Shown: positions 9,620 through 45,876 of the stretch, piece after piece
Layout of the letters: each line of letters begins with the position of its first letter
Numbering within the stretch: position 1 is the first letter of the stretch
DNA from: Geminocystis herdmanii PCC 6308
GTDB lineage: Bacteria > Cyanobacteriota > Cyanobacteriia > Cyanobacteriales > Cyanobacteriaceae
Direction of reading: 5' to 3'
Assembly (NCBI RefSeq): GCF_000332235.1
Contig: NZ_CM001775.1
Coordinates: 303,630-367,629 of the forward strand
Length of the DNA stretch: 64,000 bases
Made by a program: the position numbers and the translations under genes
The notes under the pieces: generated by a model
Database searches by the model: none
What the model was told of the DNA's origin: nothing
The model's input: the letters and a program-made list of their open reading frames with translations, nothing else

Positions 9620-11953
9620 CTAAAATAAACTTAATTGCCCTTCTCCTTTCAATTTCCAATGGTTTTCTCCTACCCTCTCCGCAATGTCTTCTAACACTGT
9701 TAAAATAGTTTGATTTTCGGGAGTTGTACCATTTTTTAATAAGGGTAAAATATTCAAGACAATTTCATCAAAAGTGCTGGTTTTATTTTCTCTTTCCATC
9801 CTTCTTAAATAACTGATTAAATAGTATTTAATTCTTAGTTTTACGTCTATGTGAGACTTAAACTTAGTATCTTTTTTAATAGTAAATAATTCGCTATTTT
9901 CATCATAGTCAAAGTTGTCTAATAATATCGGAGTTAAATCTGAATATTCTTTCTTCAATAAATCTAAAAACCCCAATTCTAAGCCTTTTATAATCAATTC
10001 ATCATTAATTTGCTCAAGGGTAGCCCCATCATTTTTAGCAATTACACCCTCGATCGTCTGGATAACAATTTCTGCTATATCCATTCCCAAATTAGCCTTT
10101 AAAATAGTTCGAGGAGTACGAACTTTACAAAAATTTATGATTAATTGTCCAGATAAGACGGTAAAGGGATTTTGACGTTTTTTGAAGCTAGTTTGTCCAT
10201 TTTTTTGAGCAACTGCGCCCTTATATTCAAAACCGCAACTTTCAGCAGTATCGATGATGAGATGCCAAAATTCGGGGTCTTTATGAGCGAATACAAACGA
10301 CAACCATCGATCGAACTTTAAAACTCGATACATTTCCTTGATACTTTGGGCGATTAATTCGTTATATTCATCCTTAGATTTGTGGTTTTCTCCTCCTTCA
10401 ATTGCCTCTAAATTATAGTCATTTTCAGTGACTTCTAAATCTAGCCAACCATTCCACATAGTCGATAAATCTAGGTAGGGAATTTTTTTGCCGTAGGGTG
10501 GATCAGTGTAAATATAATCTATACTTTCATTAGGTATAAAACTTAAATCTGTCGCCGATGCTTTGAGAATTTGAGCGTTAGAAATGGTGTTTTCATTAAT
10601 ATTATATTCCATCTCTTTTTTAGCAGAAATTACTTTTTTATACTTAGTTTCATAAATTTTTAATAAAGGCATTTCACCCGGTGATGGTGCTATTCTATAA
10701 CGATAATATCTAAAAATAGAACTGTCTCCTCCTCCTTCAGTTTTTGTATAATGAAACGTTAAATTATATTTATTTACTGTGCTAGAAAAAGCCAACATTA
10801 AAGAGTTTCTAATATTTTTATTTTTCTCTTTATTAATGAGATGTTTTAAGAAAGCTAATTGAGCTAATTGTTTATCACTAAATAATTTTTCGATAGTATC
10901 CACATCCGAACCTTTAGGCAGTTTTAAACCCTGCGGATAAGGATATTTTAGCAAGGCTTTTTTGATTTCATCTTCGGTAATAGGTTCATGTTTTTGATAA
11001 GCTGATTTTACCCTTTCAAATGCCTTGTTTAAGTCATCAAAATTTACAGGAGAAATGAGGGAATTAACGAGAAAAATAGCAAGGGGATTAATGTCAATAC
11101 TGATGGCTTTTCTATTATTCATTAAAGCCTCAATGGCAGTGACACCACTACCTCCAAAGGGATCAAGAATAGTATCATTAGGTTGACTAAAATTTTTAAT
11201 ATATTCAGCCACCACATTCCACACTTGTTTAGTGAAATAACCATGCACCCCAAAATGTCTTTTTGCCGCTTGTTTTTTCGGGATAATTTCAGCTAATAAA
11301 GGGCGATTTAAGTAGTCAAATGATCCCCCCCAGCCCCCCTTAATAAGGGGGGAGTTAGACGAAAAATTATCCTTAATAAGGAGGAAGTTAGACGAGAAAG
11401 TCCCCTTTTCTAAGGGGGATTTAGGGGGATCATTTATTGGGGATTTAGGGGGATGATCATAACTAAAACCCTTCCCAAATTGAAAACTATTTAAGGACAA
11501 AAATTTACTTAAACGATCGAAATAATGAGAAAATTCATCAAGAGAAAAGAATAAAATAGGGGTATCAGTAGCAGTAGTTTTAAACAAACTAAACTCGACA
11601 CCATTACAGAGGGCAAAATAATTACTTCTCACTTCAGGATGACTAGCATAACAATAAACTTGCTCAATATGATCACCATTTTTAATATTCTCATTAGGGG
11701 CTTTTGCATCCAATACCCAAGCATAATTATTTTCAATTTTTAAGAGATAATCAGGTATTAAATTAATTTTGCGTTTTTTACTGCCAATTTTAAGGAAAGG
11801 ATGCTGTAAAGTTTTACTGCGAATAATATTATTTTCGGTATAACCTAATGAATTTAGTAGGGGTAAAATAATCACTTCTCTAACGCTATCTTCTTTAAAG
11901 TCTGGATTATTTTTGATAGTATTAAAATTAATTTCTGAGAAAATATTTAGCAT
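9620..11953 (-). CDS. HSDR_N-type nuclease domain fused to an N6/N4 DNA methyltransferase
   Basis: 777 residues. The N-terminal part (about 1-160) looks like the HsdR_N/RecB-type nuclease fold: PDYLLKI (Asp), LDAKAP (D-x-K), EQVYCYA (Q-x3-Y motif) and LCNGVEFSLF. Residues about 166-212 are a repeat-derived insert (next entry). The methylase follows: AdoMet motif I DPFGGSG near residue 266, catalytic motif IV TDPPYG near 483, then SFVFAHKDPEFW. Motif I precedes motif IV. The C-terminus is QLSLF (773-777), which matches the consensus for binding the DNA sliding clamp. Specificity is unknown, and whether the nuclease part cuts, binds or is a specificity relic cannot be told. It lies next to brnTA on the same strand. 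Confidence 0.8.
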   Translation of the reverse strand: MLNIFSEINFNTIKNNPDFKEDSVREVIILPLLNSLGYTENNIIRSKTLQHPFLKIGSKKRKINLIPDYLLKIENNYAWVLDAKAPNENIKNGDHIEQVYCYASHPEVRSNYFALCNGVEFSLFKTTATDTPILFFSLDEFSHYFDRLSKFLSLNSFQFGKGFSYDHPPKSPINDPPKSPLEKGTFSSNFLLIKDNFSSNSPLIKGGWGGSFDYLNRPLLAEIIPKKQAAKRHFGVHGYFTKQVWNVVAEYIKNFSQPNDTILDPFGGSGVTAIEALMNNRKAISIDINPLAIFLVNSLISPVNFDDLNKAFERVKSAYQKHEPITEDEIKKALLKYPYPQGLKLPKGSDVDTIEKLFSDKQLAQLAFLKHLINKEKNKNIRNSLMLAFSSTVNKYNLTFHYTKTEGGGDSSIFRYYRYRIAPSPGEMPLLKIYETKYKKVISAKKEMEYNINENTISNAQILKASATDLSFIPNESIDYIYTDPPYGKKIPYLDLSTMWNGWLDLEVTENDYNLEAIEGGENHKSKDEYNELIAQSIKEMYRVLKFDRWLSFVFAHKDPEFWHLIIDTAESCGFEYKGAVAQKNGQTSFKKRQNPFTVLSGQLIINFCKVRTPRTILKANLGMDIAEIVIQTIEGVIAKNDGATLEQINDELIIKGLELGFLDLLKKEYSDLTPILLDNFDYDENSELFTIKKDTKFKSHIDVKLRIKYYLISYLRRMERENKTSTFDEIVLNILPLLKNGTTPENQTILTVLEDIAERVGENHWKLKGEGQLSLF
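11323..11457. repeat. GGGGGATC palindromic repeat inserted in frame in the methylase gene
   Basis: A C-rich/G-rich inverted repeat (GATCCCCCC ... GGGGGATC units with CCTTAATAAGG stems) sits inside the coding region and is translated as PPKSPLEKG- and SPLIKGGWGG-type peptides (residues about 166-212). Translated repeats of the type PPKSPL.KG are common in cyanobacterial genomes. The reading frame stays open, so the insert probably falls in a loop between the nuclease and methylase domains. Confidence 0.85.
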
Positions 11954-13026: not shown

Positions 13027-13593
13027 ATGACTACTGTATTAAATATTCAGTCAATTACGGCTTTAAATAGACAACAATTTTATCAACTTTGTCTCAATAA
13101 TCCAGAATTATCCTTAGAAAGAAATCCTCAAGGAGAGTTAATTATTATATCCCCCGTTGGTGGTATAAGTGGCAGAAAAGAATCTGACTTAAATTTTAAA
13201 ATTAGTCTTTGGAATGAAGAAAAAAAATTAGGCATTGTGTTTAGTTCATCGACTATATTTAGTTTACCAAATGGGGGCGATAGAAGTCCAGATGTGGCTT
13301 GGGTATCTTTAGAAAAATGGGAAACATTAAGCGAAAAAGAAAAGGAAGGATTCCCCCCTATTTGCCCTGATTTTGTCATAGAATTAAGATCAAAAAGTGA
13401 TAGACTTAAACCGTTACAAGAAAAAATGAGAGAGTATTTAGACTCAGGATTAAAGTTAGGATGGTTAATTAATCCACAGGATAAAACCGTAGAAATTTAT
13501 CGTCCAAATCAAGTGGTTGAAGTAGTAAAAATGCCCGTTAATTTATCAGGAGAAAATGTTTTATTAGGCTTAGAAATAACTTTAGATTACTAA
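13027..13593 (+). CDS. Uma2-family (DUF820) protein, copy 1 of 3
   Basis: 188 residues, Uma2/DUF820 family with a PD-(D/E)XK nuclease fold; these proteins are massively expanded in cyanobacteria and mostly uncharacterised. Fold residues visible: SPDVAWV (Asp89) and DFVIELRSKSD (Glu119, Lys123). It is the first of three tandem, nearly identical genes, each separated by the same 21-bp spacer. Compared with copies 2 and 3 it differs mainly within residues 41-71 (GGISGRKESDLNFKISLWN here). The function is not known; a DNA-binding or nuclease role is only suggested by the fold. Confidence 0.9.
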   Translation: MTTVLNIQSITALNRQQFYQLCLNNPELSLERNPQGELIIISPVGGISGRKESDLNFKISLWNEEKKLGIVFSSSTIFSLPNGGDRSPDVAWVSLEKWETLSEKEKEGFPPICPDFVIELRSKSDRLKPLQEKMREYLDSGLKLGWLINPQDKTVEIYRPNQVVEVVKMPVNLSGENVLLGLEITLDY

Positions 13594-13614
13594 CTAAATA
13601 ATTAGAAAAAAATT

Positions 13615-14181
13615 ATGACTACTGTATTAAATCTTCAGTCAATTACTGCTTTAAATAGACAACAATTTTATCAACTTTGTCTCAATAATCCCGAATTATC
13701 ATTAGAAAGAAATCCTCAAGGAGAATTAATTATTATGTCCCCCGTTGGTGGTATAAGTGGAAAAAAAGAAGCTAATTTAATTGGTGATTTAATTGTTTGG
13801 AATCGTCAAAAAAAACTAGGAGAGGTTTTTAGCTCATCGACTATATTTAGTTTACCAAATGGGGGCGATCGAAGTCCAGATGTGGCTTGGGTATCTTTAG
13901 AAAAATGGGAAACATTGAGCGAAAAAGAAAAGGAAGGATTCCCCCCTATTTGCCCTGATTTTGTCATAGAATTAAGATCAAAAAGCGATAGACTTAAACC
14001 GTTACAGGAAAAAATGAAGGAGTATTTAGACTCAGGATTAAAGTTAGGATGGTTAATTAATCCACAGGATAAAACCGTAGAAATTTATCGTCCAAATCAA
14101 GCTGTAGAAGTATTGAAAATGCCCGTTAATTTATCAGGAGAAAATGTTTTATTAGACTTAGAAATAACTTTAGATTACTAA
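13615..14181 (+). CDS. Uma2-family (DUF820) protein, copy 2 of 3
   Basis: 188 residues; near-identical to the neighbouring copies over residues 1-40 and 72-188, including SPDVAWV and ELRSKSD. The central segment reads GGISGKKEANLIGDLIVWNRQKKLGEVF and differs from both others. It also has small unique changes near the end (AVEVLKMP, LLDLEI). The upstream spacer CTAAATAATTAGAAAAAAATT is the same as before copy 3, which fits unequal crossing-over as the origin. Confidence 0.9.
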   Translation: MTTVLNLQSITALNRQQFYQLCLNNPELSLERNPQGELIIMSPVGGISGKKEANLIGDLIVWNRQKKLGEVFSSSTIFSLPNGGDRSPDVAWVSLEKWETLSEKEKEGFPPICPDFVIELRSKSDRLKPLQEKMKEYLDSGLKLGWLINPQDKTVEIYRPNQAVEVLKMPVNLSGENVLLDLEITLDY

Positions 14182-14202
14182 CTAAATAATTAGAAAAAAA
14201 TT

Positions 14203-14769
14203 ATGACTACTGTATTAAATCTTCAGTCAATTACTGCTTTAAATAGACAACAATTTTATCAACTTTGTCTCAATAATCCAGAATTATCATTAGAAAGAAA
14301 TCCTCAAGGAGAATTAATTATTATGTCCCCCGTTGGTGCTGAAAGTGGCGAAAAAGAAGCTAATTTAATCACAGATATTAATAACTGGAATCGTCAAAAA
14401 AAACTAGGGAAAGTATTTAGTTCATCGACTATATTTAGTTTACCAAATGGGGGCGATCGAAGTCCAGATGTGGCTTGGGTATCTTTAGAAAAATGGGAAA
14501 CATTAAGCGAAAAAGAAAAGGAAGGATTCCCCCCTATTTGCCCTGATTTTGTCATAGAATTAAGATCAAAAAGTGATAGACTTAAACCGTTACAAGAAAA
14601 AATGAAGGAGTATTTAGACTCAGGATTAAAGTTAGGATGGTTAATTAATCCACAGGATAAAACCGTAGAAATTTATCGTCCAAATCAAGTGGTTGAAGTA
14701 GTAAAAATGCCCGTTAATTTATCAGGAGAAAATGTTTTATTAGGCTTAGAAATAACTTTAGATTACTAA
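14203..14769 (+). CDS. Uma2-family (DUF820) protein, copy 3 of 3
   Basis: 188 residues; the conserved parts match copies 1 and 2, with the same putative active-site residues. The central segment is GAESGEKEANLITDINNWNRQKKLGKVF. The C-terminal 60 residues agree with copy 1 rather than copy 2 (VVEVVKMP, LLGLEI), so the copies look mosaic, as expected after gene conversion. It ends the cluster and is convergent with the esterase gene. Confidence 0.9.
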   Translation: MTTVLNLQSITALNRQQFYQLCLNNPELSLERNPQGELIIMSPVGAESGEKEANLITDINNWNRQKKLGKVFSSSTIFSLPNGGDRSPDVAWVSLEKWETLSEKEKEGFPPICPDFVIELRSKSDRLKPLQEKMKEYLDSGLKLGWLINPQDKTVEIYRPNQVVEVVKMPVNLSGENVLLGLEITLDY

Positions 14770-30274: not shown

Positions 30275-30655
30275 TTATTTAATGGATTGATATAATTTTA
30301 AGCCTTCGATAAAACGAAAATCTTTTTGATTGAGGGTGTATAAATCGAATTGATAAATTAATGCGGTTGAGGCAATTAAAGCATCTGGGATAGTTAATTT
30401 ATGACTGAGGGAATATGTTTCCATGAGTTGGATAAATTGATTTGACACTTTTAAGTCAATGGGTAAAATACGAATTGATGTTAAATGTTTTTTGATTTTA
30501 TTTAACTCCGCTTTATTAATAGCACCATAGTATAACTCGCTTTGAGTAATAATACTAATAGCCAATTTCTTGACTCCAATTTGATTTAATTCACCAATAA
30601 CTTGAGGATTATTTTTATACAACTCTATCAAAATATTTGTATCACAGAGTATCAT
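30275..30655 (-). CDS. vapC: VapC-type PIN toxin
   Basis: 126 residues. PIN acidic residues: MILCDTNILIELY (Asp5), SIITQSELYYG (Glu), TIPDALIASTALIY (Asp) and LYTLNQKDF. Complete family length. The start overlaps the antitoxin stop by 4 bp (ATGA). Expected activity is Mg2+-dependent cleavage of tRNA or rRNA when not bound by the antitoxin. Confidence 0.9.
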   Translation of the reverse strand: MILCDTNILIELYKNNPQVIGELNQIGVKKLAISIITQSELYYGAINKAELNKIKKHLTSIRILPIDLKVSNQFIQLMETYSLSHKLTIPDALIASTALIYQFDLYTLNQKDFRFIEGLKLYQSIK

Positions 30656-30939
30656 TTATTTCTGTCCAACCATGCTTGTTTACGAATTAATTCGATCGAG
30701 ATTTCTCTATCTTGCCATAAACCTGCTAAGGAAAAAAAATCTTCATCATCAATATCTTTTAAAGAGTCGTCGCAAGTATCTTTTAATTTGTCCATATGAC
30801 TTTTTATGAGAGACTTATCTTGTGTCAAATTTTCTTGATGATATTTTTCTTGAAGATACTCCGCATAATGTAATAATTCCGCTTGGAGAGACACGGGCAT
30901 TTTTTCCACTGTTTCCCATATTCTAGTTTTTAATTCCAT
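30652..30939 (-). CDS. Antitoxin partner of VapC (DUF2281-like)
   Basis: 95 residues: an N-terminal helix MELKTRIWETVEKMPVSLQ and HYAEYLQEKY of the DUF2281 type, then an acidic linker and SLAGLWQDREISIELIRKQAW, a motif typical of cyanobacterial antitoxins that wrap the PIN active site. First gene of the pair. Confidence 0.8.
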   Translation of the reverse strand: MELKTRIWETVEKMPVSLQAELLHYAEYLQEKYHQENLTQDKSLIKSHMDKLKDTCDDSLKDIDDEDFFSLAGLWQDREISIELIRKQAWLDRNK

Positions 30940-31721: not shown

Positions 31722-32981
31722 ATGAAAAGACCAATTGCGATCGACCTTTTTTCAGGATGTGGAGGAATGTCATTAGGTTTAGAAGCATCTGGATTCGATG
31801 TTGTCGTTGCCGTAGAATTTGACGCTATTCATGCCTTAATTCATCATTTGAATTTTCCCTACACTCATACTATTTGTCAAGACATAAACCATCTCAACAC
31901 TGACTATTTAAAAGAGATTTTGCAAGATAAAGGCATTGATGAAGTTGATTTAATCGCAGGAGGTCCACCCTGTCAAGGGTTTTCTCTCATGGGGAAACGG
32001 CAATTAGATGATCCTCGTAATTCATTAGTGTTTGAATATGTGCGAGTGATTCGAGATTTGCAACCAAAATATTTTGTCTTTGAAAATGTACCGGGTATCG
32101 CTGTTGGTAATCATAAACAATTTTTAGAAGAATTAATCAACGAATTTGAGTTATTGGGTTATCACATCGCAAAACCCATTCAAATTCTCGATGCCAGTCT
32201 TTTTGGCGCACCCCAGAAGAGAAAACGTCTTATCCTCATGGGTAGTCGTCATGATATGCCTCTCGTTAACTATCCCCTCGAAACAGGGGAATATAATGAC
32301 GTTGAGAATACTATCAGTGATTTAAGCAATATTCCTGCTTTTATCGGTAAAAATGAAGGTATAGACGCAAATAAGCTCGATTATTCAGGATTTAGACGTA
32401 ATTTTGCTTTAAAACCTCAAGGTATTTATCGATTATGTCACGATCGCGCAGCGCCACTTCGTGATCGACAAAGAGATAATTTCGTTTATAATCATGTAGG
32501 CTCAAACCATACAGAAAAATCAAAACAACGTTTTCAAAATACTCCTCAAGGAGAAGTAGAAAAAACCAGTCGTTTCTTGAAACTTTCACCTACAGGATTG
32601 TGTAATACTCTAAGGGCTGGAACTGCCAGAGATAAAGGGGCTTACACCGCCGCTCGTCCAATCCACTACAATCAGCCAAGATGTATTACAGTAAGAGAAG
32701 CGGGAAGACTGCATACATTTCCCGATTGGTTTTTATTTCATGAGACAATTTGGCATGGTTTTCGAGAAATTGGCAACGCAGTTATTCCCATGTTAGCTAA
32801 GGCAATTGGAGACGAAATAATTAAGGTTTTAGAAGTGAACATTAACCGATTAGAAGTGAGAAAATTAGCAAAAATAGAGCTAGAATTTATGAAATATAAT
32901 ATGGATAAAGCATCCAATTATTGGAATATTTCTAATGAGATTATTCCTAAAAGAAAAAGATTAGAAATGAGTGTTTTATGA
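31722..32981 (+). CDS. C5-cytosine DNA methyltransferase 2 (possible CGATCG enzyme)
   Basis: 419 residues. Motifs: I AIDLFSGCGGMSLGLE, IV GGPPCQGFS with catalytic Cys, VI FENVPGI, VIII QKRKRLILMG, IX TVREAGRLHTFP and X GNAVIPMLA. A longer target-recognition region (about 190-300) than in the first methylase. The overall pattern resembles the cyanobacterial orphan enzyme M.Ssp6803I, which methylates CGATCG; the assignment of specificity is inference. The stop codon overlaps the ATG of a truncated gene (32978). Confidence 0.92.
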   Translation: MKRPIAIDLFSGCGGMSLGLEASGFDVVVAVEFDAIHALIHHLNFPYTHTICQDINHLNTDYLKEILQDKGIDEVDLIAGGPPCQGFSLMGKRQLDDPRNSLVFEYVRVIRDLQPKYFVFENVPGIAVGNHKQFLEELINEFELLGYHIAKPIQILDASLFGAPQKRKRLILMGSRHDMPLVNYPLETGEYNDVENTISDLSNIPAFIGKNEGIDANKLDYSGFRRNFALKPQGIYRLCHDRAAPLRDRQRDNFVYNHVGSNHTEKSKQRFQNTPQGEVEKTSRFLKLSPTGLCNTLRAGTARDKGAYTAARPIHYNQPRCITVREAGRLHTFPDWFLFHETIWHGFREIGNAVIPMLAKAIGDEIIKVLEVNINRLEVRKLAKIELEFMKYNMDKASNYWNISNEIIPKRKRLEMSVL

Positions 32982-38350: not shown

Positions 38351-38545
38351 TGTTGGCGAAACATTTTGTTACATAAAATTTGACAAAATCAACGAATTAT
38401 GTATCCGTTTGATGTGAAAAAAATGTACAAATATTGATAATTTTGGCATCTTTCCACTTGTCCACCTGTCCACTTGTCCACCTGTCTCATCTTCATAATT
38501 TGCTTTATTTCTAATTAATACAGGTTAAGATTTGTTTCGCCAACA
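38351..38545. mobile_element. 195-bp inverted-repeat element with TGTTGGCGAAACA ends
   Basis: 13-bp perfect terminal inverted repeats, TGTTGGCGAAACA (38351-38363) and TGTTTCGCCAACA (38533-38545), enclose a (GTCCACCTGTCCACTT)-type minisatellite at 38456-38497. The ends differ from those of copies A-D, but the minisatellite is shared. No coding capacity. Confidence 0.8.
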
Positions 38546-38849
38546 AGATCATTTATTTCATTGTGGAATAATGGTTTTCACCAATAAACCGCTTTGCGAT
38601 AAATTGACAAAGCTAACAGTTAAAGTCTGCTAAAGCCACTAAAAAACAATTTTACTGCGACTTTGAAAAAACCCTGCGTTAAATGGCGGAAATGGATGAT
38701 TTACTTTCAAATCTCTACAACATAATACTGCATAATTTCCGTTTTTTCTACTGATAGATAATATAGGGGGAAAAAATACTTGTACTATGATCCTATATAG
38801 TGTGGGTAATACCCATGATCAATTAAAAGTCTAAATAAAAATACTTTTT
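38546..38849 (+). promoter_or_regulatory. Upstream region of the ParA-like gene with palindrome 38803-38815
   Basis: No gene seen. The 13-bp interrupted palindrome TGGGTAATACCCA lies 35 bp before the ATG of the ParA-like gene, directly after an AT-rich stretch (TATATAG) that could be a -10 region. A role as operator for the downstream pair is a guess. Confidence 0.35.
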
Positions 38850-40220
38850 ATGACTGAATCCAATCTCAAAAAAACATGGTTAGCCTTATCTTCCGAAGCC
38901 ATTGAAGGTGATATACTAACCCAATTTATTATTCCTGCCTTATTACCATCATGGAATTTTGAAGGTAATGAGTTTTGTATCCAATGTCCTACGGGTAAAG
39001 GTGCACAGAAAGTTGATTTAGCCGTCAGAAAAAACACCACTACCGATATTTTTGCTCACAGTAAAACGAATCCATTTTTGATTATCGAATTAAAAAGAAG
39101 GATGCTAGATATTTCTACAGGTAGTAAAAGTTATCATAATGCAGTGTTACAACTAAAGCGTTATTTAGCTCCCAGTGCTACTAATTGTAAAACTGTTCGT
39201 TGGGCAATTTTAACTAATGGCAATTATATTCAACTTTTTCGCCGTCATGGGAAAGTTGTTTATCCTTATACAGAAAATATCCTGTTAACTCTTGATAATA
39301 TTGATGAGAAAATAGCACTGATCAAAAAATATATTGATCAACCCGAAAAAGCCTTATCAGTTGCCTTGTATAACAATAAAGGAGGAGTAGGCAAAACTAC
39401 AACAACTATTAATTTAGCAGGAGTTTTATCATTACCTGCCCCTTTTGGCTTTAATAAAAAAGTGTTAGTAGTAGATTTTGATCCCAATCAAAAAGATTTA
39501 TCTGATTTACTTGATTTTAAAACCCCTTCCCTCAAATTATCAGAATTTTTTTTAGACTACAAAAATCAAAATATTAAAGATGTGATTTCTACCTATAGAC
39601 TAAAAGCTAATAATAAAGTATTCGGCTTTGATATTATTCCCGCTGATGATCAGTTTTTGGAAATGGATCGAAATACTATTAATTCTTTAGGTATTGGCAC
39701 TTTAAGAAAATCTTTATCGAGTTTGAGAAATATTTATGATTATATTCTCATTGACTCTCCCCCCGGAAATGAATTTTTTAATAAAGATTCGATCGCAGCT
39801 TCTGATGTGGTGCTGATACCTTCTAAACATAATGGCATTGCCTCCTTCAAAAATGCCGCTTCAGCCATTACCAAAATTTTTCCGTCTATAGGAGAAAAGC
39901 GTCGCACCTATCAAGCAGAATTAGGAAATCCTTTTCCTTTACCTATTTTCTTTAATGGAGAACAAATTAGTAGTGCTGCCAAACAACAAGCACAAAAAGC
40001 TATTTCAGATATTATTAAACAGGCTAAAATAGAAGAACAAATGGACTTAACACCCTTTTTCTTTCCTAAATATACCAATGCTCAAAAAAATTTAGAAATA
40101 TTTGAATTGCCTAACTATGCTCATATTGCCTCTGCATCATTTTCTAAACGTCCTGCGGTTTTTACCAGTAAAAAAGCCCGTGAATATTATACTGATTTAG
40201 TAAGGGAATATTTTATCTAA
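38850..40220 (+). CDS. HSDR_N-type nuclease domain fused to a ParA/MinD-type ATPase
   Basis: 456 residues with two clear parts. Residues about 15-155 show the type I restriction HsdR_N/RecB-like nuclease signature: Glu19 region EGDILTQFIIP, KVDLAV (Asp56), IIELKRR (Glu80-x-Lys82), LQLKRY (Gln101-x3-Tyr105) and LTNGNYIQLF. Residues about 168-450 are a ParA ATPase: deviant Walker A NNKGGVGKTTTT (Lys177, Lys182), VVDFDPNQKDLS, Walker B IILIDSPPG-like YILIDSPPGNEF, and a late SKHNGIASF. ParA proteins normally segregate plasmids or position complexes; the nuclease domain is not a usual partner. The stop TAA overlaps the start of the ParB-like gene by one base (TAATG). I do not know a described system with this architecture. 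Confidence 0.85.
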   Translation: MTESNLKKTWLALSSEAIEGDILTQFIIPALLPSWNFEGNEFCIQCPTGKGAQKVDLAVRKNTTTDIFAHSKTNPFLIIELKRRMLDISTGSKSYHNAVLQLKRYLAPSATNCKTVRWAILTNGNYIQLFRRHGKVVYPYTENILLTLDNIDEKIALIKKYIDQPEKALSVALYNNKGGVGKTTTTINLAGVLSLPAPFGFNKKVLVVDFDPNQKDLSDLLDFKTPSLKLSEFFLDYKNQNIKDVISTYRLKANNKVFGFDIIPADDQFLEMDRNTINSLGIGTLRKSLSSLRNIYDYILIDSPPGNEFFNKDSIAASDVVLIPSKHNGIASFKNAASAITKIFPSIGEKRRTYQAELGNPFPLPIFFNGEQISSAAKQQAQKAISDIIKQAKIEEQMDLTPFFFPKYTNAQKNLEIFELPNYAHIASASFSKRPAVFTSKKAREYYTDLVREYFI

Positions 40221-40924
40221 TGAAACAAGAAATCGGAACATTATTACATCTTTATTTAGATGAAATTGAATTAAAAGAACCCATAGAAACCCATCCTTTT
40301 TTAATTAATAATGGGGCTAAAGCAATTAATGAAGCAAAGGGAAGAAATTGGATTCCTTTAGTTGTGAAACAAATTGATTCAGATCAATATGAAGTAATTG
40401 CCAATAGTTTTATTTTTGTTTGCGCCCAAGAAGCAGGGCTTAAAAAAGTTTGGTGTTTGATTGCCGATGACTCTCCAATAACGGAAGAATCAGCGAAAAT
40501 TTTGGCACAAGAAAAAATAGCAAAAATTGATTTAGCGACTGCTTCAAGAGAGGAAATAAAATTAGGACTTGACTATTTAATTAAACGTTCTATTAATCCT
40601 TTAGTTGGGGTAAATATAGCCACTGCTACAGAAAGAATCGATCGAGCTAATCGCAGTTTATGGAAAGAAAATTTAGCAAAAATTCCTGATTTAAAATGTG
40701 GAATTACTAAGGGGAAAAAACTAGATATTTTTAAAGAAGTATTTTATATTAAATCTTCAGTTTCTTCAGGAGAATCTGAAGCAAAATCTAATGAAATAGA
40801 AGAAATAAACGCTCAAGATTTTAATAAATTAACATTAAAAACTTTAAAAGCAATGGCAAAAGAAAAGGGTTATTCTGGTTATTCAAAAATGAAAAAACAA
40901 GAACTTATTAAGTTGTTATCATAG
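40220..40924 (+). CDS. ParB-like protein with C-terminal Rho_N/SAP-type domain
   Basis: 234 residues. Residues about 40-95 (NWIPLVVKQIDSDQYEVIAN, then AQEAGLKKVWCLIAD) follow the ParB/Srx N-terminal pattern, without the usual GxxRxxA box being convincing. A helical middle region with RANRSLWKENL follows, then a low-complexity linker and a terminal Rho_N/SAP-like module (residues about 203-234: LTLKTLKAMAKEKGYSGYSK) expected to bind nucleic acid. There is no ParB-type HTH. Coupled to the upstream ParA-nuclease gene, it is likely its partner or adaptor. Confidence 0.7.
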   Translation: MKQEIGTLLHLYLDEIELKEPIETHPFLINNGAKAINEAKGRNWIPLVVKQIDSDQYEVIANSFIFVCAQEAGLKKVWCLIADDSPITEESAKILAQEKIAKIDLATASREEIKLGLDYLIKRSINPLVGVNIATATERIDRANRSLWKENLAKIPDLKCGITKGKKLDIFKEVFYIKSSVSSGESEAKSNEIEEINAQDFNKLTLKTLKAMAKEKGYSGYSKMKKQELIKLLS

Positions 40925-41144
40925 TCAGATTAGCAGAGGATTAAAAATTTATATAGCGTTTTTTAAAATTATGGGGTACATTTTTTTTGCCTATTGCCTT
41001 TCGACGACAATTTTTGTACCTCATCAAAAGGAGAATTGTTATATATAAGTTCGATCGACTTTTCTGGAAAGATTTTGATTGTATTCTAAAACCAATATAA
41101 TAATCATAATATTAGAAATTTAAGTTAAAATAAGTACCAGTTTT

Positions 41145-43956: not shown

Positions 43957-45876
43957 ATGTTCCAAAAAAAATCTGATGCCATGAGTAAGCTAGTCGTGTT
44001 AAATTTGGGTGCGGGAGACTTAAATAAAGGATTCCCTTATATTACCGCTCAATTAAGGACAGATAATGGCGGATTTGAGCAATTTACTGGTAGTTTGCCC
44101 CCGAATCCAGAATTAGCAACACTCTACTATAATTGGCAAACCCTTTATCAAGCCTTACATCAGTGTTTTGATGTAGCTAGACGCAGACTATTTGAAGTGA
44201 AAGGGCAAGGATTAACTAATATTTCTGTCAAAGAATTTCAAGAACTTTGTCAAGAAATTGAAACAAAATTTAATCTTTGGCTAGAGTCTTCCAGTTTTTC
44301 CCCCATCGATAAAAAATTACGCACTAAATTAACTCCTGATGAAGAAATACAAATAATTGTGGAAACTAAAGATATTATTTTACATGGTTTTCCTTGGCAT
44401 TTATGGCATTTTTTAGAAGATTATCAACAAGCAGAAATAGGCATTAGTACCCCTGAATATAGTTTAATAAATATTAGTAAAAAATCGAGAAATAAGTTAA
44501 GAATATTAGCTGTGTTAGGCCATAGTGAAGGTATAAATATAGAACTCGATCGAGCCTTAATTCAAGAAATTAAAAATGCAGAAATTACCTTTTTAGTTGA
44601 GCCTAAATCAGCAGAATTTCATCAAAAATTATGGGATGAAGAAGGATGGGATATGTTATTTTTTGCAGGGCATAGCCACACGGAAAATCATCAAGGAATT
44701 ATCTTTATTAATCCGAAAGAAAGTCTAACTATTAAAGAATTAAAAACTGCTTTAAATCAAGCCATTAAACAAGGATTAAAACTAGCTATATTTAACTCCT
44801 GTGATGGTATCGGATTAGCCCAAGAATTGACTAAATTAAACATTCCCCAAGTCATTGTTATGAGGGAAGGAGTACCAGATTTAATTGCCCAAGAATTTTT
44901 GAAATATTTTTTAACCGCTTTACAACAAAATAAATCCGTTTTTTGTGCTTTAAGGGAAGCCAGAGAAAGATTACAGGCATGGGACAAAGACTTTCCGGGA
45001 GGAAGTTGGCTACCGATGATTTGTCAAAATTTATCAACTTTTAATCTGGAAATAAAATTACAAGAAAGTCTTAAAATTTTTCCTAATTTATCCGTTGATT
45101 TTTGGCATAAAAATAATGATATTGATTTAGAAAATACTATTTTTTATAAAAAGATAAAAGAGACAAATTTATTCGTAAAAATAATCGATATTACTACCTT
45201 AGATGTTGACGTGATCGTCAGTTCCGATGATAATTATTTAAAAATGGGTGGTGGTGTTTCCGCTTCTATATTGAAAAAAGGAGGCAATAGTATTAAAGAA
45301 CACGCCTTAAAATTTGCACCGATAAAATTAGGGGATGTAATCATGACAAGTGCTGGTAATTTGTCAGCAAAATATGTTTTTCATGCCGCAGTTTTAGACT
45401 ATGAATTATATTATCATGCTCGATCGAAAAAACCAACTATTAATATTGTTCAAGAAGTCACAAAAAAATGTTTAAAACTAGCGGAGTCAGTTAATGCCCA
45501 ATCCATTGCTTTTCCTGCTTTAGCTACGGGTGTAGGAGGACTTCCTCCTGAACAATCTGCTCTTGGTATCATGATTGAAATTATGAAGGTTTTGAAATCA
45601 AATACTTCTCTGAAAACTATTATTATTGCTCTTTATGGACATCAAAATAGTAATGTAAATACCATCAAAGAAATTAAAAATCATTTTTTGAATCAAGTTT
45701 CACACTTTATTGACATTTATCAACAAATGGAAACTCGTTATGAATTATTAAAGGATTTAGAAAATATTTTTAGTAGTTATGATATTAAATTAGCCAGTGA
45801 TATAACATCTCAATATCAAGAAAAATTAACGGAAATTATGAATCAATATATAGATAATATAAGTAATGGAGAATGA
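43957..45876 (+). CDS. CHAT-domain protease fused to a macrodomain
   Basis: 639 residues; Met9 (MSKLVVLNL) is an equally good start. N-terminal segment with VLNLGAGDLNKGFP and a helical part is typical for cyanobacterial CHAT proteins. The caspase-like CHAT domain (about 130-360) carries the putative catalytic pair His239 in FFAGHSH and Cys282 in FNSCDGIGLA. A macrodomain follows (about 403-568): DITTLDVDVIVSSDDN, MGGGVSASILKKGG and AFPALATGVGGLP, with SSDDN in place of the usual NAAN, so ADP-ribose binding may be altered. A helical tail of 70 residues ends the chain. CHAT proteases cut partner proteins in defence and cell-death systems; macrodomains read or erase ADP-ribose. No partner gene is adjacent. 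The stop codon lies inside a heptamer array. Confidence 0.85.
   Translation: MFQKKSDAMSKLVVLNLGAGDLNKGFPYITAQLRTDNGGFEQFTGSLPPNPELATLYYNWQTLYQALHQCFDVARRRLFEVKGQGLTNISVKEFQELCQEIETKFNLWLESSSFSPIDKKLRTKLTPDEEIQIIVETKDIILHGFPWHLWHFLEDYQQAEIGISTPEYSLINISKKSRNKLRILAVLGHSEGINIELDRALIQEIKNAEITFLVEPKSAEFHQKLWDEEGWDMLFFAGHSHTENHQGIIFINPKESLTIKELKTALNQAIKQGLKLAIFNSCDGIGLAQELTKLNIPQVIVMREGVPDLIAQEFLKYFLTALQQNKSVFCALREARERLQAWDKDFPGGSWLPMICQNLSTFNLEIKLQESLKIFPNLSVDFWHKNNDIDLENTIFYKKIKETNLFVKIIDITTLDVDVIVSSDDNYLKMGGGVSASILKKGGNSIKEHALKFAPIKLGDVIMTSAGNLSAKYVFHAAVLDYELYYHARSKKPTINIVQEVTKKCLKLAESVNAQSIAFPALATGVGGLPPEQSALGIMIEIMKVLKSNTSLKTIIIALYGHQNSNVNTIKEIKNHFLNQVSHFIDIYQQMETRYELLKDLENIFSSYDIKLASDITSQYQEKLTEIMNQYIDNISNGE

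Follow-up and report, generated by a model that had tools for sequence, protein, structure and literature searches.

The window analysed here is a stretch of 64,000 nucleotides from Geminocystis herdmanii PCC 6308 (NZ_CM001775.1). The genome around it measures 4.26 Mb in a single contig, and the closest named relative among the matches is Geminocystis sp. GBBB08. Positions 38850-40924 on the plus strand hold two coupled genes, ORF1 and ORF2, which overlap by one base within the sequence TAATG, as a preliminary description made from the sequence had stated. A 28-base pattern search around TAATG was uninformative. The features of the locus are as follows.

38716..38849, plus strand: upstream segment of the unit, included in the block common to another Geminocystis copy
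38803..38815, no strand assigned: palindrome TGGGTAATACCCA in the promoter region, a candidate operator, unconserved in the closest relative
38850..40220, plus strand: ORF1, 456 aa, coordinates with stop codon, fusion of an HsdR_N-type PD-(D/E)XK domain with a ParA ATPase (Pfam, AlphaFold2, structure search)
38892..39269, plus strand: predicted nuclease domain, residues 15-140, with E19, D56, E80-x-K82 and Q101-x3-Y105
39345..40217, plus strand: ParA ATPase domain, residues 166-456, with the deviant Walker A motif KGGVGKT (K177 and K182)
40220..40924, plus strand: ORF2, 234 aa, coordinates with stop codon, ParB-like putative DNA-binding partner (Pfam, predicted structure, structure search)
40238..40516, plus strand: ParB N-domain fold of ORF2, residues 7-99 (structural match to 7bnk; alignment)
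40517..40753, plus strand: ComEA-like helix-hairpin-helix (HhH) domain of ORF2, residues 100-178 (match to 8dss; HHH_6 in a distant homologue)
40799..40921, plus strand: predicted Rho_N/SAP nucleic-acid-binding tail of ORF2, residues 194-234 (Pfam Rho_N; 1a8v)

Similarity to the other Geminocystis copy spans 38716-40937, and the flanks beyond are unrelated. Across both genes, dN/dS between the two copies ranges from 0.12 to 0.28 (0.12 for the ParA domain, 0.15 for the nuclease domain, 0.28 for ORF2), which indicates that all three are under purifying selection. Outside this block, about five tandem 8-bp units (CACYTGTC) lie at 38447-38486, ~370 bp upstream of ORF1.

The C-terminal part of ORF1 gives a strong Pfam match to ParA at residues 171-330 (AAA_31, E=2e-26). 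In the AlphaFold2 model (mean pLDDT 81.5, pTM 0.86), residues 166-456 form a complete ParA ATPase, superposing on Helicobacter pylori Soj with Z 24.5 and an rmsd of 3.0 over 251 residues. Both lysines of the deviant Walker A motif are nearly invariant among homologues (K177 in 45/46, K182 in 46/46), so that the full ParA reported in the preliminary description is upheld.

The N-terminal part is recognised more faintly. A Pfam scan returned a weak and consistent HSDR_N_2/HSDR_N match over residues 40-132, and the window's own domain reaches E=4.5e-5 against HSDR_N_2, its best score of 24.0 bits falling just under the curated cut-off (25). When 37 family members were scanned individually, 26 matched HSDR_N_2 (best E=1e-7), 10 HSDR_N, four MmeI_N and one NucS_C; MmeI_N and NucS_C are also PD-(D/E)XK families. 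Unrelated Pfam kinds appeared as three stray matches only, in one member each. The secondary structure of the model (helix 19-34; strands 42-47, 54-59 and 77-81; helix 93-106; strands 118-122 and 126-133) follows the order expected of a PD-(D/E)XK fold, and D56, E80-x-K82 and Q101-x3-Y105 fall in the expected elements. Structural comparison of ORF1 produced a match list filled by ParA structures, and comparison of the nuclease domain with solved structures by sequence gave no meaningful match.

Among 46 homologues, many with less than 45% identity to the window protein, conservation is 44/44 for E19, 43/44 for D56, 46/46 for E80, 45/46 for K82 and 40/46 for Q101; P75, N123, Q128 and P139 are also constant, and a single member (L076) lacks both D56 and K82. 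In the divergent clade III (see below), E11, E13, D46, E69 and K71 are invariant in 15 sequences. The HsdR_N-type PD-(D/E)XK domain of the preliminary description is therefore real by profile, with its signature and order of elements in place and its catalytic residues conserved, and is a predicted nuclease. It resembles the N-terminal domain of type I restriction HsdR in its D, ExK and QxxxY motifs, but is fused to ParA rather than to an SF2 helicase motor and has no HsdM or HsdS partner: no SF2 motor, HsdM or HsdS domain was found in the pair or as a recurrent neighbour.

ORF2 is a composite of three domains. In its predicted structure, residues 7-99 match the ParB N-domain 7bnk (Z 12.9, rmsd 2.0 over 89), residues 100-178 the HhH domain of ComEA (8dss, Z 7.2, rmsd 2.2 over 62) and residues 194-234 the N-terminus of Rho (1a8v, Z 5.8, rmsd 1.3 over 41; Pfam Rho_N, E=3e-6). 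Pfam HHH_6 is matched by a distant homologue (7e-5), and residues 103-178 are repeated in the homologues L094, L083, L074 and L082. By sequence and model, the HhH and Rho_N/SAP domains are predicted to bind nucleic acid. The ParB-like N-terminal region and the Rho_N/SAP tail were already proposed in the preliminary description, which overlooked the HhH domain between them; no HTH profile matched ORF2, the middle domain resembling ComEA HhH instead. The CTP-binding GERR (GERRxRA) motif of ParB is missing in every clade: the alignment has ANSF at this place in the window protein, GNSF in most relatives and a DGHFEYY-type sequence in the clade III partner. The ParA-binding motif LG-R/K-GL was not found at the N-terminus of ORF2, which begins MKQEIGTLLH and conserves only G6 and L8.

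Clades, replicons and fate within the genus

Cyanobacterial members of the family fall into three main clades: I, which includes the window pair and occurs on chromosomes and some plasmids; II, mostly on plasmids; and III, with one copy per chromosome. A tree of the ParA domain strongly supported clades I, III and IIIb, and II less so; I and II were sisters, and a single origin of the fusion was not resolved by the tree. Within a sample of 386 cyanobacterial genomes, ORF2-like proteins were present in 41 (E<=1e-4), and the figure for clade I ORF1 is much the same (41 at E<=1e-40, by our count). A profile made from the divergent clade III set brought in another group, present in 68 genomes (E<=1e-8), with strong matches in about 60. 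By the union of the two lists, clade I or III is carried by about 80 of the 386 genomes (~1 in 5), some copies being truncated. The clade III examples that we read join a 450-510-aa HsdR_N-ParA protein to a downstream ParB-like protein whose tail is of the HhH or SAP/Rho_N kind; each complete genome has one copy, on the chromosome. In several genomes (L157, L158, L159 and L174), a second, divergently transcribed gene adjoins this pair; it encodes ParA only (294-333 aa) and forms its own clade in the ParA tree.

The two genes are conserved as a pair, a point on which the preliminary description had made its reading depend: the ORF2 family adjoins ORF1 in 43 of 49 loci, mostly overlapping it or directly after it, and these loci are not confined to plasmid partition regions. 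No neighbour besides ORF2 recurred across the 49. An ORF1 that lacks its partner was seen in G305 and in a set of four related genomes, L085-L088. Three of these (L086-L088), of one genus, carry the solitary clade I ORF1 at the same chromosomal place beside rpsB/tsf-like genes, with the nuclease motif intact. Phage genomes gave no match to ORF2, and among the matches listed, those to ORF1 were confined to the ParA domain and its surroundings. The ORF2 profile gave no match by pattern in IMG/VR; a 58 kb IMG/VR contig reached via ORF1 carries both genes of a clade I pair. Outside cyanobacteria, matches were also noted on Vibrio and Piscirickettsia plasmids. In six close Microcystis-like sequences (L101, L106, L108-L111), dN/dS was 0.6-0.67 for ORF1 against 0.12 for ORF2, a mosaic pattern that suggests recombination or diversification of ORF1 and that, given the mosaic differences, is not counted as evidence here.

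Most complete genomes with clade I have it on the main chromosome. Nostoc sp. UHCC 0870 also has it on plasmids, one of 35.7 kb and one of 55 kb; these plasmids, NZ_CP091922 and NZ_CP091917, bear ParM and Soj-type partition genes as well, so that partition is otherwise provided there. Clade II is carried by another UHCC 0870 plasmid, by Pseudanabaena ABRG53g, by pPg_01 and by Leptolyngbya boryana pLBA; the last of these has a terminase gene and therefore looks like a phage-plasmid. Neither ABRG53g (12.6 kb) nor pLBA (77.8 kb) has an annotated ParA-type gene other than that of the clade II pair.

Within Geminocystis, the unit is accessory, mobile and decaying. One relative has a pseudogene with four stops (G386), another a deletion remnant (G145) and a third no copy at all (G387); the second Geminocystis copy is intact but at a different place. 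An 'empty site' at cax-dprA proved undefinable because gene order is reshuffled within the genus. The pseudogene and the remnant are what would be expected if the operon were a relic of plasmid partition, functionless in the genome of the window. This is very improbable, however, given the intact frames, the invariant catalytic residues and the low dN/dS between the two Geminocystis copies. The suggestion in the preliminary description of a maintenance system for a lost plasmid stands in part: it agrees with the plasmid location of clade II and with the mixed, plasmid and chromosomal location of clade I. Active sites that are conserved on chromosomes, and purifying selection, speak against mere relics.

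Centromere, origin and defence associations

No shared palindrome, iteron or motif was found upstream of clade I and III operons or flanking 25 loci. The palindrome TGGGTAATACCCA was rejected as a parS site: the genome holds three exact copies only, near-matches are not much more frequent than in a reversed control (16 against 9), and it is unconserved in the closest relative. On ABRG53g, an array of about 11 TGTAACAG-type 8-bp repeats (positions 411-697 of locus L071) lies ~0.4-0.7 kb downstream of the clade II pair. Such repeats may be the iterons of a plasmid replication origin, or a centromere; since pPg_01 has no such array next to its near-identical pair, the array could represent the replication origin of ABRG53g. 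With dnaN as a proxy for oriC, the distances of the loci from the origin were uniform (KS p 0.25 for clade I, n=12; 0.68 for clade III, n=17).

These results bear on what we regard as the strongest rival to the reading developed below, namely ParABS-like partition with an added nuclease. ORF2 would then be a CTP-independent centromere binder, the nuclease-like domain would bind DNA or resolve linked or multimeric copies, and the chromosomal copies would be captured plasmid modules. The pair shares with ParABS/Soj-Spo0J a ParA fold with deviant Walker A, a partner with the ParB N-domain and the operon order parA-parB, and its clade II form is what one would expect of partition on the two plasmids that have no other annotated ParA-type ATPase. 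Moreover, no canonical ParB was found in the genome of the window, and ORF1/ORF2 is therefore the sole ParA/ParB-like pair found there; relatives without the pair survive. A precedent for a ParB-like protein that works with ParA independently of CTP is ParT, of the ParATS system of plasmid SCP2, but ParT is entirely devoid of a CTPase domain and its ParA has no nuclease (PMC12260392); ParA-linked ParT homologues are almost all from Actinomycetota (PMC12260392).

Unlike in ParABS, however, ParA bears here an HsdR_N nuclease domain, ORF2 lacks the GERR motif and has HhH and Rho_N/SAP domains in place of the parS-binding HTH of ParB, and the pair shows neither a recognisable centromere nor linkage to the origin. 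Loss and decay in close relatives, the other partition genes on clade I plasmids and an intact catalytic site, which a partition ATPase does not need, also argue against partition, which we consider rather unlikely. The presence of clade II on small plasmids supports it all the same, and our confidence in the preferred reading is limited for this reason.

The preliminary description had also proposed a defence device and predicted its enrichment in defence islands, a prediction that failed. In a comparison of 150 proteins neighbouring 17 clade I loci with 150 control proteins, PADLOC matches were no commoner beside the loci than at controls ~200 kb away, which contained a CRISPR locus. The clade I neighbours are ordinary housekeeping genes, and the best match of the pair to known-defence profiles (PADLOC-DB 2.0.0) had E=2e-4 and covered the ParA part only. 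Taken together, the lack of a defence-gene or origin link, the lack of a recognisable centromere and the relocation, decay and absence within the genus argue against both essential chromosome partition and the defence-island prediction.

The housekeeping neighbourhood would suit a chromosome-maintenance or repair device of polyploid cyanobacteria, cutting or clearing aberrant nucleoid DNA, of which clade III would be the fixed form and clade I the form that spread. Such a role would agree with the single chromosomal copy of clade III in about 60 of 386 genomes and with the known involvement of HhH and SAP/Rho_N domains in DNA transactions. It is poorly reconciled with the absence of any form from most sampled cyanobacteria, the decay in Geminocystis and the occurrence on plasmids, and we judge it improbable.

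A possible ATP-switched nuclease

Sequence profiles and predicted structures point to a real, conserved variant of the ParA/ParB-like pair with a built-in nuclease domain, which is apparently undescribed. To our knowledge, ParA/ParB pairs have been described as movers of DNA and not as DNA-cutting systems. The retention of the active site across the three main clades, on plasmids and chromosomes, suggests that a ParA switch has been recruited to control DNA cleavage. In line with the preliminary description, which knew of no such design, neither an HsdR_N-ParA fusion nor the ORF1/ORF2 pair turned up in the open-access journal literature that we searched in full text.

Among known proteins, PadC, other ParB-fold adaptors and the ParB-DUF3850 fusion encoded beside parA (PMC12704722) likewise place a ParB-like fold, coupled to ParA, in a setting other than canonical partition. 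A 2025 survey of the ParB fold singled out ParB-DUF3850 as the one fusion that consistently accompanies parA (PMC12704722); ORF2 scores 20.6 bits against the Pfam cut-off of 26.3 bits used there, and would therefore have been missed.

Our preferred reading, to which we assign a probability of about 0.42, is that of an accessory two-gene module of plasmids and chromosomes, an ATP-switched nuclease on a ParA/ParB-type chassis that is steered by its partner and used in replicon competition. ATP-dependent dimerisation and non-specific DNA binding are features of the ParA family, established for Soj/ParA. Beyond a conserved nuclease, a ParA and a DNA-binding ParB-like partner, we infer the following steps. 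The partner would bind DNA through its HhH and Rho_N domains and use its ParB-like domain to contact the ATP-bound dimer of ParA, and dimerisation of ParA on DNA would pair two nuclease domains. Cutting would take place only where the partner licenses it and would end upon ATP hydrolysis; the ParB-like partner could both load the fusion at particular DNA and trigger its release. Least certain is the target, which might be other replicons, such as competing plasmids, phage-plasmids or incoming DNA; equally tentatively, the pair may act as a weapon or exclusion module when carried by a plasmid, and provide captured accessory immunity when it sits on a chromosome.

We favour replicon competition because the carriers include plasmids and a possible phage-plasmid, the captured chromosomal copies are patchy and lie outside defence islands, and the nuclease is intact. 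The recurrence of the same two-gene design in separate clades, with a partner that has HhH or SAP/Rho_N domains, also speaks for it, as do the conserved pairing, the purifying selection on the nuclease domain, the IMG/VR contig, the accessory behaviour in Geminocystis and the separate partition genes of the clade I plasmids. Against it stand the partition-like setting of clade II on ABRG53g and pLBA; the stable single chromosomal copy of clade III in many genomes, unusual for a defence system; and the lack of defence-gene enrichment and of a known-defence profile match. Both the cleavage and its target are predictions.

In a related and tentative formulation, to which we give somewhat less than even odds, the family would be a distinct DNA-targeting class common in cyanobacteria, neither classical partition nor catalogued defence, in which the ParA cycle switches and positions the fused nuclease and a CTP-independent ParB-like HhH/SAP protein picks the DNA. 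The interest of the family lies in its conserved catalytic site and its breadth. If the nuclease reading is true, it would represent a new way of policing replicons, with consequences for the transformation of biotechnologically used cyanobacteria and the stability of their plasmids.

Other features of the window

Three consecutive 188-aa ORFs at 13027-14769 (plus strand), of which the first and third, those scanned, are Uma2-family putative restriction endonucleases, are apparently PD-(D/E)XK genes that expanded in tandem. The window also encodes two DNA methyltransferases, one of the N6/N4 type at 9620-11953 (minus strand) and one of the C5-cytosine type at 31722-32981 (plus strand). At 30275-30939 (minus strand), a two-gene unit resembles a DUF6883/DUF4926 pair that lies beside clade I and II loci on the Nostoc UHCC 0870 plasmids, and is a possible toxin-antitoxin-like module. 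Finally, a 639-aa protein at 43957-45876 (plus strand), 3 kb downstream of the pair, joins a CHAT protease to a macro domain; this pairing of domains is unusual, and the protein could be an ADP-ribose-linked effector.
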